In this document: piece by piece, positions 5,341-46,554 of the stretch
How the letters are laid out: each line of letters opens with the position of its first letter
How positions within the stretch are numbered: the first letter of the stretch is position 1
Virus record (IMG/VR): IMGVR_UViG_3300035698_003554
Coordinates: 1-46,554 of that record
DNA: 46,554 bases
Origin: a virus
Reading direction: 5' to 3' (one strand)
The notes under the pieces: model-generated
What the model was told of the DNA's origin: nothing
What the model saw: only the letters and a program-made list of their open reading frames with translations
Database searches by the model: none
Position numbers and translations under genes: made by a program

Positions 5341-5553
5341 ATGAAAAACAAAATAACTATAATCAATAAATGCTGTTGTTGTGGTGGCGATGTAAAAGCA
5401 AGCTACCAAGATGGCGAGGAAATGAACAAGTGTATGGCAGAGTCCTGTGATGTATGCGTGAAGTGTTACAAAGCTGGTTGCCTCACAATGTCTGGAGAAA
5501 TCTGTAATGTTACAGGAAAAACACAGGTACAACTAATCACAAAAACATCATGA
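5341..5553 (+). CDS. Cysteine-rich small protein
   Basis: A 70-residue protein with ten cysteines, including CCCCGG (residues 11-16) and CDVCVKC (36-42). The spacing fits one or two zinc-binding knuckles. No family is recognised. Its start follows the hairpin leader at 5318-5339. It overlaps the next small frame by ATGA. Confidence 0.6.
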   Translation: MKNKITIINKCCCCGGDVKASYQDGEEMNKCMAESCDVCVKCYKAGCLTMSGEICNVTGKTQVQLITKTS

Positions 5554-6278: not shown

Positions 6279-6497
6279 ATGAAAATAACAGCAAGCCGTT
6301 CAATTCTCCCTTGGGGAACTCCGAATGTAAAAGTAGATATGTCAGAGCACATTGGAGAAATAGTTATCTCTGGGGCTCTTCACAAATCCGTAACTTTTGG
6401 ATGGAGTCCAATAAAAGAACATATAAAATATTGGAATGATATGCAACAAAACACTATTACAACAAAAAAAGCTAATAAGAATAAAACCAGAGTTTAG
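6279..6497 (+). CDS. Hypothetical 72-aa protein
   Basis: A basic 72-residue protein with no recognised motif. The frame starting at 6279 is preferred to the overlapping frame at 6221 because it follows the repeated leader at 6254-6269. Confidence 0.55.
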   Translation: MKITASRSILPWGTPNVKVDMSEHIGEIVISGALHKSVTFGWSPIKEHIKYWNDMQQNTITTKKANKNKTRV

Positions 6498-7684: not shown

Positions 7685-8450
7685 ATATTTCCGCGAACTC
7701 TGGCATCTTATAATTGGTCATAGAAAACCAGGGGCTTTTGACGAGCCAGACGAGAGAGACTATACGACAGACAAAATTAAAGTGTCTCAAATACTATTCC
7801 CTAAAGGAGACGGGAGAATGGATTTATCTGCTAACCCAGCTAAAGACCAAGGACAAACTAATTTTTGTACTTCTTATGCTATGGCTTCTCTTATAGAGTC
7901 TATGCTTGTTAGGAAACTTCATAGGTTTATAGATGTTGATCCACAACAACTAATCAACTTCCAACAGAATAGGAGAAACGGAATGGTTGATTCAAACGAT
8001 GTCTGGGATATAGCTGAGAAAGGGGACACGCTCCAAAACGCACTACAGGCGGTTATTGATAATAGGACTAAATTTAAAGACTACGACCCAGATGGGAAAT
8101 CTATTACTGGGTATGTTACATTTCATGGATACTCTAAAATAGATAAAGACCTTAAAACAATGTCTGAGTGGTTGGCTAAAGGACATCCAACGTACACAGG
8201 AAGTACCTGCTTTGATAACTACATTGATTCGGCTGGATACTGGCAAGTATCTGGAAAGAAAAGAAGGGGGGGACACGCCTTCCACATTCCTAAAATCTGG
8301 TGGTACAAAACACTTGTCTGGCTACTGACTCCGTTTATGGAAAATACTTGGGGGCAAAAATGGAACGGTAATGGCGAAGCACCGCTTAACCCAAACACTA
8401 TTAGAAAGTTAATGAGCACATATATACTTTATGGACTGGAGGTGAAGTAA
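7677..8450 (+). CDS. Papain-like (C1) cysteine peptidase
   Basis: A 257-residue protein with the C1 catalytic set in order: DQGQTNFCTSYA with nucleophile C64 and oxyanion glutamine Q58 or Q60, RGGHAFHI with H200, and ENTWGQKW with N223. The DERDY sequence near residue 25 is common just before phage C1 domains. No signal peptide is clear. Processing of virion proteins or cleavage of cell-wall peptides are both possible. No ordinary endolysin is found and membrane-protein genes follow, so a lytic role deserves testing. Confidence 0.8.
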   Translation: MIEYFRELWHLIIGHRKPGAFDEPDERDYTTDKIKVSQILFPKGDGRMDLSANPAKDQGQTNFCTSYAMASLIESMLVRKLHRFIDVDPQQLINFQQNRRNGMVDSNDVWDIAEKGDTLQNALQAVIDNRTKFKDYDPDGKSITGYVTFHGYSKIDKDLKTMSEWLAKGHPTYTGSTCFDNYIDSAGYWQVSGKKRRGGHAFHIPKIWWYKTLVWLLTPFMENTWGQKWNGNGEAPLNPNTIRKLMSTYILYGLEVK

Positions 8451-8457
8451 TTTCCCC

Positions 8458-8503
8458 TTGACAAACACTTGACTTTAGTTTTGTTCTGTGGTATGATTTA
8501 GGC
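8458..8503 (+). promoter_or_regulatory. Leaderless promoter with extended TTGACAAACACTTGAC element
   Basis: TTGACT (8469-8474), a 17-base spacer and TATGAT (8492-8497) are followed by TTAGGC and ATG 8504. The expected start of transcription is the A of ATG. An additional TTGACA at 8458 is 11 bases upstream of the -35, one helical turn away; the same 14- to 16-base element recurs at 41021-41036 and 43331-43344 on the minus strand. Confidence 0.75.
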
Positions 8504-8629
8504 ATGAGTTACCAAAAAGAAAAACAAAAAGACCTTAAACTATCTAACAAACTTCAACCACACGAATGGGTTGCAATTATGGTTGTTATTGGAATGCTTC
8601 TCTTTTCTTTATATCATATTGTGTCATGA
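8504..8629 (+). CDS. Small membrane protein, predicted leaderless
   Basis: A 41-residue protein with a charged N-terminal half and one transmembrane segment (about 22-39). Its ATG coincides with the predicted transcription start. It overlaps the next gene by ATGA. A single-span charged peptide of this kind could be a holin or antiholin, but no family match is claimed. Confidence 0.65.
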   Translation: MSYQKEKQKDLKLSNKLQPHEWVAIMVVIGMLLFSLYHIVS

Positions 8630-9009
8630 AAAAATACTTAACAATCACCGTCTTCGTTATAATTACTGGTCTTATTGGGCTTGCTATGGCAAACAATACA
8701 CAAAGCAAGAGATTAGAACGTGCCTACGCTTCGGCTAGTGAGGTTAGAAACGAACTAATGGTAGATTATGATGTTTTGTATCAAAAACTGTTAGAAGCGA
8801 ATACAGAGCTAAATAGGGTTGAATGTAAATTAGCAGATAATAAACACAAAAAAGCAGAAGATAAAGAGGAATTAGATCGGTTGGCTTTTAAGATTTGTGA
8901 TATTTGCGAAGAAGTTCCTGTTAGGTTACAGGAGTTTTGCGCGATGGATGATTATTCGTTTGTCGGAGATATTTTGGGGGGACTTTCTACTAGAGATTAT
9001 CCACAATAA
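8626..9009 (+). CDS. Membrane-anchored coiled-coil protein, possible i-spanin
   Basis: Residues 4-22 are a transmembrane or uncleaved signal segment; residues 28-90 form a charged coiled coil; the C-terminal part has five cysteines. This architecture, following a small membrane protein, resembles Rz-type inner-membrane spanins. No partner o-spanin lies inside the gene. ATG 8626 is chosen over 8566 because of the ATGA overlap with the 8504 gene. The stop codon at 9009 touches the end of the opposing gene at 9010. Confidence 0.55.
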   Translation: MKKYLTITVFVIITGLIGLAMANNTQSKRLERAYASASEVRNELMVDYDVLYQKLLEANTELNRVECKLADNKHKKAEDKEELDRLAFKICDICEEVPVRLQEFCAMDDYSFVGDILGGLSTRDYPQ

Positions 9010-11630: not shown

Positions 11631-12323
11631 TTATTCTATGTGTGAATCATTAAATTGAAATACTTTTGCTCTGCCGATATGTGGAGCACGAACTCTCGTG
11701 TCGCACCATACCTCAAAACCTTCTTCTGTTGCCCTTTCGATAAACTCCATATCCTCTGACATTGTTCGTCTTTGAACATTGAGTTTCTTTGGGTCTTTTG
11801 TAAATGTAGTGTCACCGTACTCAAACGGTTTTCCTTCGTACTTAGCAAATAGTTTTGCCAATACTTCTGCTTTAATCAATGTACATCCCATGCCACATCC
11901 GTCTACTTTGACGAGGTGGCTTCCTGATGTATTCAGTTTGTTCATATTCTTGTAAATCGTCATTCCTTTTCCGTTTCCTTCTTTAACTTCTTCTGCTGTA
12001 AACAGGCATAAATCATGCGCCCCTTGTTCGTTAGGGTTTCGTGTTGGGATTGGAGAACAGACAATATCCTTATCGTCCTGTAAGAACTTCTCGATAGTAT
12101 CTTCTGGCGGTGGGTTGTCATCATCTACAAAGAGTACATGACTTGCTCCACCTTCTAGTGCCATCTTAACGATAGCGTTACGAGCTACATCTGTCCGCTG
12201 TCTTTCAACGATAGATACCATGCATGGTACTGTCTTCTTCATTTTAAGTAATGCTTCAACAGTCATTGCTGGAAACAGACCGCTTCCATTTGGGATACCG
12301 ATAACGATTTTTGTGTCTTTCAT
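11631..12323 (-). CDS. GT-A fold glycosyltransferase-like protein
   Basis: A 230-residue protein with a nucleotide-sugar-binding layout: N-terminal KIVIGIPNGSG, RTDVARNAIV (43-52), the DxD-type FVDDDNPPP (65-73), and a later CGMGCTLIK segment plus SEDMEFIERA, typical of family 2-like glycosyltransferases. It may decorate phage structural proteins or host surface. It has its own leaderless promoter and is the only enzyme among the fibre genes. Confidence 0.75.
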   Translation of the reverse strand: MKDTKIVIGIPNGSGLFPAMTVEALLKMKKTVPCMVSIVERQRTDVARNAIVKMALEGGASHVLFVDDDNPPPEDTIEKFLQDDKDIVCSPIPTRNPNEQGAHDLCLFTAEEVKEGNGKGMTIYKNMNKLNTSGSHLVKVDGCGMGCTLIKAEVLAKLFAKYEGKPFEYGDTTFTKDPKKLNVQRRTMSEDMEFIERATEEGFEVWCDTRVRAPHIGRAKVFQFNDSHIE

Positions 12324-12358
12324 GTCGTTACACTAGCATAAACTAGCACTTTTATCAA
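12324..12358 (-). promoter_or_regulatory. Leaderless promoter of the glycosyltransferase gene
   Basis: On the minus strand TTGATA (12358-12353), spacer 17, TAGTGT (12335-12330), then AACGAC and ATG 12323. The TGA inside the -35 box is the stop codon of the long fibre gene ending at 12355. Transcription should begin at the A of ATG. Confidence 0.7.
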
Positions 12359-20077: not shown

Positions 20078-20344
20078 TTAGTTTCTTTTTCTCCTCGCAA
20101 TTCCCCTCCTATATAATTGTCTATAACCGCTTCCATTTTTAAATCTGTATCGTGAATCATCTCGCCTTCGTTCTCTCGCTATTTGTAGCGCTTTCATGTT
20201 AACACTAACTACTGGTTTGAGCGTGTCTGCGTTTTCATAGCATTGATATTTTCTACCCTCTACACGACATCCCCACCGATTTAGGCGACCATACCCAAAA
20301 CAAGTAATTGGAATAATAATGAGAGCGAATAGTAGTTTCTTCAT
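20078..20344 (-). CDS. Small secreted basic protein, predicted leaderless
   Basis: An 88-residue protein with an N-terminal signal peptide (KKLLFALIIIPITCFGYG) and a strongly basic mature part (many Arg, ending RRGIARRKRN), with two cysteines in the early mature region. No family is recognised. Its own promoter with a leaderless start separates it from the virion genes on either side, which suggests a late addition (moron). Confidence 0.6.
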   Translation of the reverse strand: MKKLLFALIIIPITCFGYGRLNRWGCRVEGRKYQCYENADTLKPVVSVNMKALQIARERRRDDSRYRFKNGSGYRQLYRRGIARRKRN

Positions 20345-20378
20345 GCCACAATAATAATCTTTCGTTTGCGTTTGTCAA
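20345..20378 (-). promoter_or_regulatory. Leaderless promoter of the secreted protein gene
   Basis: TTGACA (20378-20373), spacer 16, TATTAT (20356-20351), then TGTGGC and ATG 20344. A perfect -35 and the six-base gap to C-ATG match the pattern seen at five other genes. Confidence 0.7.
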
Positions 20379-20480: not shown

Positions 20481-20558
20481 ATGGATTTAGTAATAGCTTG
20501 TATTATCGGAATTCCGCTCTACTTTATCTTAGAGTCTATTTGGTCTCACTTTGACTAG
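20481..20558 (+). CDS. Possible 25-aa membrane peptide on the plus strand
   Basis: MDLVIACIIGIPLYFILESI followed by WSHFD is an almost complete transmembrane helix with an amphipathic end. It starts seven bases after a TATGAT box and ends 22 bases inside the opposing gene at 20536. Size, hydrophobicity and promoter support it, but a chance frame cannot be excluded. Confidence 0.45.
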   Translation: MDLVIACIIGIPLYFILESIWSHFD

Positions 20559-37518: not shown

Positions 37519-37860
37519 CTACTTAATCTTTTTAAGGGTGTTTAGGTTCATTCTGCCGCCTTTCCCAATAAGATATACTTTAAACTTGCTACCAACTAGC
37601 TCAATGTGTACTTCTGTTGCCAGAAAGTGTTTCCTTAGCTCGGTAGTCGACCGATGCCTCTCTTCTGAGTGGCTTAGTGTGTTGTCGCGTAAATCTATGT
37701 CACAAGTATTAATCAATGTTATGTCTAGGCAATCTCCCTTTCCCAACTGATATTTTTGATATTCAACCCTAGGATAGGCAAGATATTTTCCCTTGTGTTC
37801 TAATTGTATTCGTTTGGTTTTCTTAAACAACTTACAAATGCGATTGTATAATTTTTTCAT
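37519..37860 (-). CDS. Hypothetical basic protein, predicted leaderless
   Basis: A 113-residue basic protein with a Lys/Arg-rich start and a later beta-rich part (CLDITLINTCDIDLRDN, VHIELVGSKFKVYLIGKGG). No family is recognised. The ATG is six bases after a -10 box, and the promoter overlaps the end of the terminase gene. Confidence 0.6.
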   Translation of the reverse strand: MKKLYNRICKLFKKTKRIQLEHKGKYLAYPRVEYQKYQLGKGDCLDITLINTCDIDLRDNTLSHSEERHRSTTELRKHFLATEVHIELVGSKFKVYLIGKGGRMNLNTLKKIK

Positions 37861-37895
37861 GTCTAAATACTAGCTCTTGTTGCCCCTAAAGTCAA
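37861..37895 (-). promoter_or_regulatory. Leaderless promoter at the end of the terminase gene
   Basis: TTGACT (37895-37890), spacer 17, TAGTAT (37872-37867), TTAGAC, then ATG 37860. The TGA in TTGACT is the stop codon of the terminase gene. Confidence 0.75.
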
Positions 37896-39765: not shown

Positions 39766-40011
39766 TTATTTTAAGGGTTCGTAAGTTAATTTAAAAATAT
39801 CTGGTTTGCAGGGATAAAGCTCGTCTTTTACTCCCTTGATAATAAAGTCGTTAACCCTTGCTTCGTGGACACCCTCCATTGTAGCAATAAAAACAGATCC
39901 AGTACTGTTGTCCATTTCAAACTTATCAGACCTTCCTTTCCACCAACTAGGGACTTCATCTATTCTCCACTGAAACGCTTCTATCACAACTGGTTTTTTT
40001 CTATATTCCAT
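39766..40011 (-). CDS. Conserved phage protein, predicted leaderless
   Basis: An 81-residue protein of a widespread phage type, with RKKPVVIEAFQW at the N-terminus, VFIATMEGVHEARVNDFIIK in the middle and KDELYPCKPDIF near the end. The function is unknown. The ATG is predicted to be the first transcribed codon. Confidence 0.75.
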   Translation of the reverse strand: MEYRKKPVVIEAFQWRIDEVPSWWKGRSDKFEMDNSTGSVFIATMEGVHEARVNDFIIKGVKDELYPCKPDIFKLTYEPLK

Positions 40012-40046
40012 GCCCTAATACTAGCTTTTTCGCTCTCGAAAGTCAA
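40012..40046 (-). promoter_or_regulatory. Leaderless promoter of the 40011 gene
   Basis: TTGACT (40046-40041), spacer 17, TAGTAT (40023-40018), then TAGGGC and ATG 40011. The layout is the same as at 37861-37895 to within a few bases. Confidence 0.75.
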
Positions 40047-40887: not shown

Positions 40888-40989
40888 TCAACACAATCTT
40901 CCCGTTCCTTTTGCTGTTTTTATTAGTGTGCCAAAGCTCAGAGTCTTATCCGCTAGTGAGTCTATTATTCTTTCTATATCTTTTTTCAT
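40888..40989 (-). CDS. Small protein, predicted leaderless, possibly truncated
   Basis: ATG 40989 opens a 33-residue frame with a helical start and an ADKTLSFGTLI sequence, a pattern I recall near the N-terminus of longer small phage proteins. Here the frame stops early (TGA at 40888), so it may be a truncated member. Its promoter is one of the best in the window. Confidence 0.45.
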   Translation of the reverse strand: MKKDIERIIDSLADKTLSFGTLIKTAKGTGRLC

Positions 40990-41036
40990 GCTCTTATCAT
41001 ATCACAACTCACTATGCTTTGTCAAGTGTTTGTCAA
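40990..41036 (-). promoter_or_regulatory. Leaderless promoter with extended TTGACAAACACTTGAC element
   Basis: TTGACA (41025-41020), spacer 18, TATGAT (41001-40996), then AAGAGC and ATG 40989. A second TTGACA lies 11 bases upstream (41036-41031), as at 8458 on the other strand. Confidence 0.75.
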
Positions 41037-41045
41037 GCTAAATTT

Positions 41046-41147
41046 TCACCTCCTTGCTTCCTCGAAAAAATCCACAGATATTTGTACCGCTTCTGTATCA
41101 TCATAGGTTATTGTTGGTTGAACTGTTACTATTGTTTCGCTTGGCAT
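41046..41147 (-). CDS. Small acidic protein (33 aa)
   Basis: ATG 41147 opens a 33-residue acidic frame (TITYDDTEAVQISVDFFEEA). It lies between two genes of the same strand. Codon composition matches neighbours. No family is recognised. Confidence 0.45.
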   Translation of the reverse strand: MPSETIVTVQPTITYDDTEAVQISVDFFEEARR

Positions 41148-46218: not shown

Positions 46219-46485
46219 TCAATTCTTACTCTTGTTCTCCATGAAAGTCAAGTGAATAGACCTTAGTTCGTCTTGCGTTAGATGTGGTTTTGTTTTGAAG
46301 TGTGCCATGTCGTGACAACTCCCACACAAACACAGGACGTTTTCTACTTCATCTCCCCCTTGGTGACTCTTATATATAATATGGTGGAATGAGATCATTG
46401 TGTTTCCTCCGCACGCTTCGCAAAGGAAAACATCGTCAGGACATTTATTAAAGTGTTTCAAGTAGTTGACTATGTGCTTTTTCAT
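46219..46485 (-). CDS. Small HNH nuclease
   Basis: An 88-residue HNH protein: CEAC (22-25), FHHI with catalytic H34-H35, N49, and CGSC (54-57) with H58 and H62. Small stand-alone HNH proteins often assist terminase-dependent DNA cleavage in phages, though this one lies away from the terminase genes. Its start codon lies within the terminal repeat. Confidence 0.8.
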   Translation of the reverse strand: MKKHIVNYLKHFNKCPDDVFLCEACGGNTMISFHHIIYKSHQGGDEVENVLCLCGSCHDMAHFKTKPHLTQDELRSIHLTFMENKSKN

Positions 46486-46554
46486 GTGTTTACTATTTAG
46501 CGTTTGTAATAAATAGTGGATTCACTGTGAACTAAGAACTATGCACATTGCATT
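46428..46554. repeat. 127-bp terminal direct repeat, right copy
   Basis: Identical to 1-127. It holds the start of the small HNH gene and, at its right end, the end of the gene annotated at 95-352. Joining 46427 to 1 yields continuous leftward genes. Confidence 0.95.

Follow-up and report, generated by a model that had tools for sequence, protein, structure and literature searches.

The genome and its six promoter–start codon sites

The window, by which we mean the whole analysed stretch of 46,554 nucleotides (IMG/VR record IMGVR_UViG_3300035698_003554), carries a perfect 127-bp direct terminal repeat at 1-127 and 46428-46554, a feature from which we judge the record of this uncultured phage to be probably complete, with a genome size of about 46.4 kb. 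Genes occupy the plus strand in the first 9 kb and the minus strand in nearly all of the remainder; they encode a terminase, a portal, a capsid protein, tail proteins, a YqaJ recombinase, a RusA resolvase, a DnaD-like loader and HNH nucleases. The window yielded no RNA families or tRNAs, and the proteins scanned, a subset of the open reading frames (ORFs), included no sigma factor or RNA polymerase.

Read directly from the letters, a TAnnnT -10 box ends exactly 6 bases before ATG at six gene starts (8504+, 12323-, 20344-, 37860-, 40011- and 40989-). All six also have a sigma70-type -35 box at a spacer of 16-18 bases and a C at -1, and none has a Shine-Dalgarno (SD) sequence upstream of the AUG, so that the layout described in the earlier note is present at each of the starts it listed. 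On the plus strand, the candidate leaderless promoter at 8469-8506 consists of TTGACT (8469-8474), a spacer of 17 and TATGAT (8492-8497), followed by ATG at 8504; a second TTGACA lies directly upstream of its -35 box. It precedes a 41-aa ORF (8504-8629, plus strand) with one hydrophobic segment, whose stop is coupled through ATGA to the start of a 127-aa ORF at 8626-9009. The remaining five sites are on the minus strand. At 12321-12358, TTGATA (12353-12358) and TAGTGT (12330-12335), 17 bases apart, precede ATG 12323 of a glycosyltransferase-like gene (11631-12323, minus strand), the 230-aa product of which matches PHROG 1574 and, weakly, an Anp1 glycosyltransferase; this start codon agrees with those of homologues at 93% and 77% identity. 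The site at 20342-20378 has TTGACA (20373-20378), a spacer of 16 and TATTAT (20351-20356) before ATG 20344, the start of an ORF of 88 aa whose N-terminus resembles a signal peptide. At 37858-37895, TTGACT (37890-37895), a spacer of 17 and TAGTAT (37867-37872) stand before ATG 37860 of a 113-aa ORF, for which no homologues were confirmed. The same two hexamers at the same spacing recur at 40009-40046 (TTGACT 40041-40046, TAGTAT 40018-40023) before ATG 40011, which begins an 81-aa protein of PHROG 419 and agrees with the starts of its homologues. Finally, at 40987-41025, TTGACA (41020-41025), a spacer of 18 and TATGAT (40996-41001) lead to ATG 40989 of a 33-aa ORF.

The six candidate promoters sit in intergenic gaps of 31-191 bp, and two of them extend over the end of the previous gene: in gaps of only 31 nt, the -35 box of 12323 overlaps the end of the upstream gene and that of 37860 the end of the terminase gene. 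Some sites share longer sequences. A duplicated cassette, TTGACAAACACTTGAC, with two TTGAC boxes stands at 8438-8473 and 41021-41053, before the 8504 and 40989 starts, and may hold an operator. TTGACTTT is common to the sites at 8504, 37860, 40011 and 37442, and GCTAGTAT to those at 37860, 40011 and 734-.

The arrangement occurs far more often than expected by chance. The pattern TTGAC-N17-19-TAnnnT-N6-ATG is matched 5 times in the window, whereas 300 dinucleotide shuffles averaged 0.11 matches and never exceeded 2; with the ATG moved to any other distance between 0 and 40, there is one match at most. Requiring C at -1 and tightening the spacer range leaves 4 matches against 0.01 expected. The 12323 site escapes the TTGAC pattern because its -35 box is TTGATA; it is recovered at distance 6 when up to one mismatch to TTGACA and TAnnnT is allowed, a scan that returned 31 sites on both strands, six of them with ATG at distance 6 and at most 2 at any other distance. 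An E. coli sigma70 matrix, built independently of the phage, places 40989, 20344, 8504, 40011 and 37860 among the 8 best intergenic sites, so that five of the eight best intergenic promoters lie exactly 6 bases from a gene start. The uniform C at -1 is only moderately surprising, since 27 of the 70 genes overall have it.

Beyond these six starts the pattern thins out. The earlier note had added two starts with -10 boxes at 8 and 7 bases; both boxes exist, but neither makes a convincing promoter-start. At 10266-, TATAAT lies 8 bases before ATG and lacks an acceptable -35 box, and at 20481+, TTGCAA and TATGAT stand 7 bases before an ORF of only 25 codons, antisense within the minus-strand gene block. 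At 414-, 40739- and 37469- a leader of roughly 20-60 bases separates promoter and start, and these promoters are thus not leaderless. The genome has about 70 genes and six of the promoters described, so that calling the pattern genome-wide was an overstatement; as a regular strategy it is apparent for promoter-proximal genes, to judge from the best-scoring intergenic promoters, but most genes are operon-internal or leadered.

The genome as a whole makes little use of SD sequences. An SD-like tetramer precedes 2 of 70 gene starts (3.4 in shuffles) and A occupies -3 in 49 of 70, counts that carry some error because the starts were hand-called from the ORF list; an automatic gene call gave the same picture (SD 4%, A at -3 69%). 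The start context strongly favours A at -3, -2 and -5.

Related viruses and the probable host

No close DNA relatives were found among GenBank phages, and relatives were located via the terminase, portal and glycosyltransferase genes. They too are SD-less and share the start context of the window. Four of them (G424, G423, G425 and L013) have promoter sites of their own at 6 or 7 bases from a start, mostly before other genes; the genes behind such sites are putative HNH- and LAGLIDADG-like endonucleases, an ERF-like protein and small proteins, with families assigned by sequence reading. Three further relatives (L015, L016 and L017) show no promoter site of this kind. The 12323 promoter is absent in the 4 homologues with readable upstream sequence (L021, L023, L024 and L025; 49-93% aa identity). 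In a single orthologous pair, L047:13038 and L021:49 (63% aa identity), a 7-base spacing has persisted despite divergence of the DNA. Of the homologues of gene 40011 examined in other phages, 79 in all, an SD-like motif precedes 55 and a leaderless promoter none; the leaderless start is therefore a property of the phage's setting rather than of the gene. Conservation applies to the architecture and not to the individual gene. On whether relatives preserve the six-base spacing the comparison points both ways: sites at 6-7 bases recur and one ortholog pair keeps 7, but the spacing is missing at the homologues of 12323 and 40011.

The leaderless-looking starts at L047 9554, L013 2625, L009 2191 and L050 4762 belong to homing-endonuclease-like genes, as if mobile genes in the relatives carried their own leaderless promoter.

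The architecture also turns up in other viruses. Scanning viral contigs with the long motif picked out four, in all of which the ATG opens an ORF of 114 codons or more; two of them, the unrelated large contigs G430 and G431, have a 6-7 base peak of their own. In a large, SD-poor virus, IMGVR_UViG_3300031965_000001 (105,910 bp; L058-L063), 22 of 159 ORF starts have TAnnnT at a distance of exactly 6 bases, other distances giving about 1-9; the case for leaderless usage is stronger there than in the window.

The portal protein matched nothing in 50,697 GenBank phage records but aligned over its full length with sequences in two Paceibacteria genomes (E 3e-42 and 8e-41), at an identity of only about 25-27%; the best hit in a control of 378 Bacillota genomes was 3e-5. 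Paceibacteria genome G748 has a terminase (31% over 512 aa) next to a portal, and the terminase search of 380 Patescibacteria genomes gave weak matches only. Because the portal has its full-length relatives in Paceibacteria genomes and none in GenBank phages, we regard a host in the Paceibacteria (Patescibacteria) as reasonably probable. A genome named Candidatus Nomurabacteria led to this class; we take it to belong to class Paceibacteria in GTDB.

Translation signals in these bacteria resemble those of the phage. SD motifs are at or near the shuffled level in the Paceibacteria ORFs sampled, A at -3 ranges from 30 to 67% among the samples, and the phage start context (SD at background, A at -3) matches. 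In two Nomurabacteria genomes SD is near the shuffled level and TAnnnT peaks at 6 bases in 14 of 67 ORFs. A pooled, mostly Patescibacteria set has 9 sites with a -35 box at distance 6 against 0-2 elsewhere, and Paceibacteria motif matches number 427 at distance 6 against 278 at the distance-9 control, a modest excess only. The Paceibacteria 16S 3' ends that were found keep CCTCC (anti-SD) in all or nearly all places, a result biased towards intact copies because the search limited mismatches. Saccharimonadia also show a leaderless 6-7 peak, but SD motifs are used in 23-35% of their ORFs, which makes them a less likely host.

The long motif was also matched in single genomes of Verrucomicrobia, Planctomycetota, Bacillota and Deltaproteobacteria and therefore extends beyond Patescibacteria. 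Several of the matches in bacterial genomes have no real ORF after them, including both in Nomurabacteria (L036 1564-1640 and L039 6087-6124, minus strand). In these two the long promoter motif is followed by a short conserved element, approximately TAGGCGTAAGCCTTATAAA...GGGTTTTT, which may be a small RNA.

Proposed leaderless initiation and alternative readings

Transcription by sigma70 polymerase begins some seven bases downstream of the -10 box, with a preference for a pyrimidine/purine pair at -1/+1, and a 5'-terminal AUG is a known substrate of leaderless initiation. On this basis, host sigma70-class promoters would place +1 at the A of ATG and give rise to six leaderless mRNAs, on which the ribosome would start at the 5'-terminal AUG, needing no SD sequence. 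The whole genome would be adapted to initiation independent of SD, with a member of the Paceibacteria class of Patescibacteria as the most likely host, and the leaderless promoter would serve as a compact, self-contained start module of about 38 bp, able to overlap the end of the preceding gene. We hold this account, from host sigma70 promoters through six leaderless mRNAs and an SD-independent genome to a most likely Paceibacteria host, with considerable confidence; the start sites, the AUG-first translation and the host are the parts that we infer from sequence. The earlier prediction that the six mRNAs begin with AUG is well supported by the geometry, the statistics and the comparisons. Most likely, about six promoter-proximal genes are leaderless via host sigma70, and the others are leadered or operonic without SD. 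Leaderless promoters suit this phage, in which genes almost never use SD and which probably infects an ultra-small member of the Patescibacteria.

One alternative explanation is coincidence in AT-rich sequence, with the true promoters elsewhere and the genes read through from upstream. The lack of such a promoter before gene 12323 in relatives and the 31-nt gaps at 12323 and 37860 would suit it; given the excess over shuffled sequence and the independent recurrence in other viruses, we find it scarcely credible. It is also quite improbable that the promoters are real but start transcription a few bases up- or downstream, which would leave very short leaders or else remove the AUG and shift translation further in. 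Sigma70 start-site choice does vary over several bases, and some sites in relatives are at 7 rather than 6; against this, none of the six sites departs from a distance of exactly 6, the C before the A gives the favoured -1/+1 pair, and the 12323 and 40011 starts agree with homologues. The +1 may lie a base or two away from the A of ATG, and an mRNA with only 1-2 nt of leader would still function as a leaderless one.

A third reading, rather unlikely in our estimate and compatible with leaderless translation, takes the sites as a dedicated class of phage promoters, marked by TTGACTTT and GCTAGTAT, that a phage factor places under temporal control, leaderlessness being a side effect. The sharing of these two sequences among several sites and of the TTGACAAACACTTGAC cassette by 8504 and 40989 speaks for such a class. 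The protein scan described above returned no sigma factor or polymerase to act on it, however; moreover, the boxes are ordinary sigma70 consensus and the long motif also precedes starts in unrelated bacteria and viruses.

Comparison with known leaderless systems

Leaderless starts are already known, and the compact gene-start arrangement is in itself no novelty. The lambda cI mRNA from PRM is a leaderless phage transcript, and the transcripts predicted here would likewise start at AUG from a sigma70 promoter; lambda cI is one repressor gene, whereas the window has six unrelated genes, none a recognised repressor. Flavobacterium has SD-less, A-rich 'Kozak-like' start contexts, which the non-leaderless genes of the window resemble in lacking SD and favouring A at -3, but the TTGACA/TAnnnT promoters of the window differ from the TTTG/TAnnTTTG promoters of Bacteroidota. 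A TAnnnT box at about -12 has been tied to leaderless genes in Actinobacteria and Deinococcus-Thermus (Zheng et al. 2011, PMC3160421; PMC12340547), the -35 box being an optional enhancer of leaderless genes in Deinococcus (PMC12340547), and lambda phage has been named as the first leaderless case (PMC3160421). The phage sites share with these bacterial genes (PMC3160421; PMC12340547) their geometry, computational signature and SD-independent start; they differ in belonging to a phage genome that is SD-poor throughout and in having good -35 boxes.

In the literature searched, full-text searching found no paper on leaderless genes in Patescibacteria or the candidate phyla radiation, nor any description of an SD-less phage with leaderless promoters, probably of Patescibacteria. 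As a tentative joint reading, which we think somewhat less likely to be right than wrong, a phage lineage of ultra-small Patescibacteria may have dropped SD initiation, using portable leaderless modules for accessory genes (homing-endonuclease-like genes, the glycosyltransferase and small membrane proteins) together with SD-less operon coupling. If the leaderless account is true, the rule of a -10 box six bases from the start would improve start-codon calls in such phages and their hosts, and the six sites would provide a concrete test of translation start in SD-poor minimal bacteria and their phages.

Near-identical sequences also lie directly before different starts elsewhere in the window, at 5341 and 5627, at 6279, 6523 and 7142, and at 42553- and 43151- (ACCCCGTATCACGGGATACAA; CTAACCCACCCAATAGGGAC; ACCAACCTATATC). 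In an SD-less genome, such repeated 5' elements are possibly translation or processing signals.
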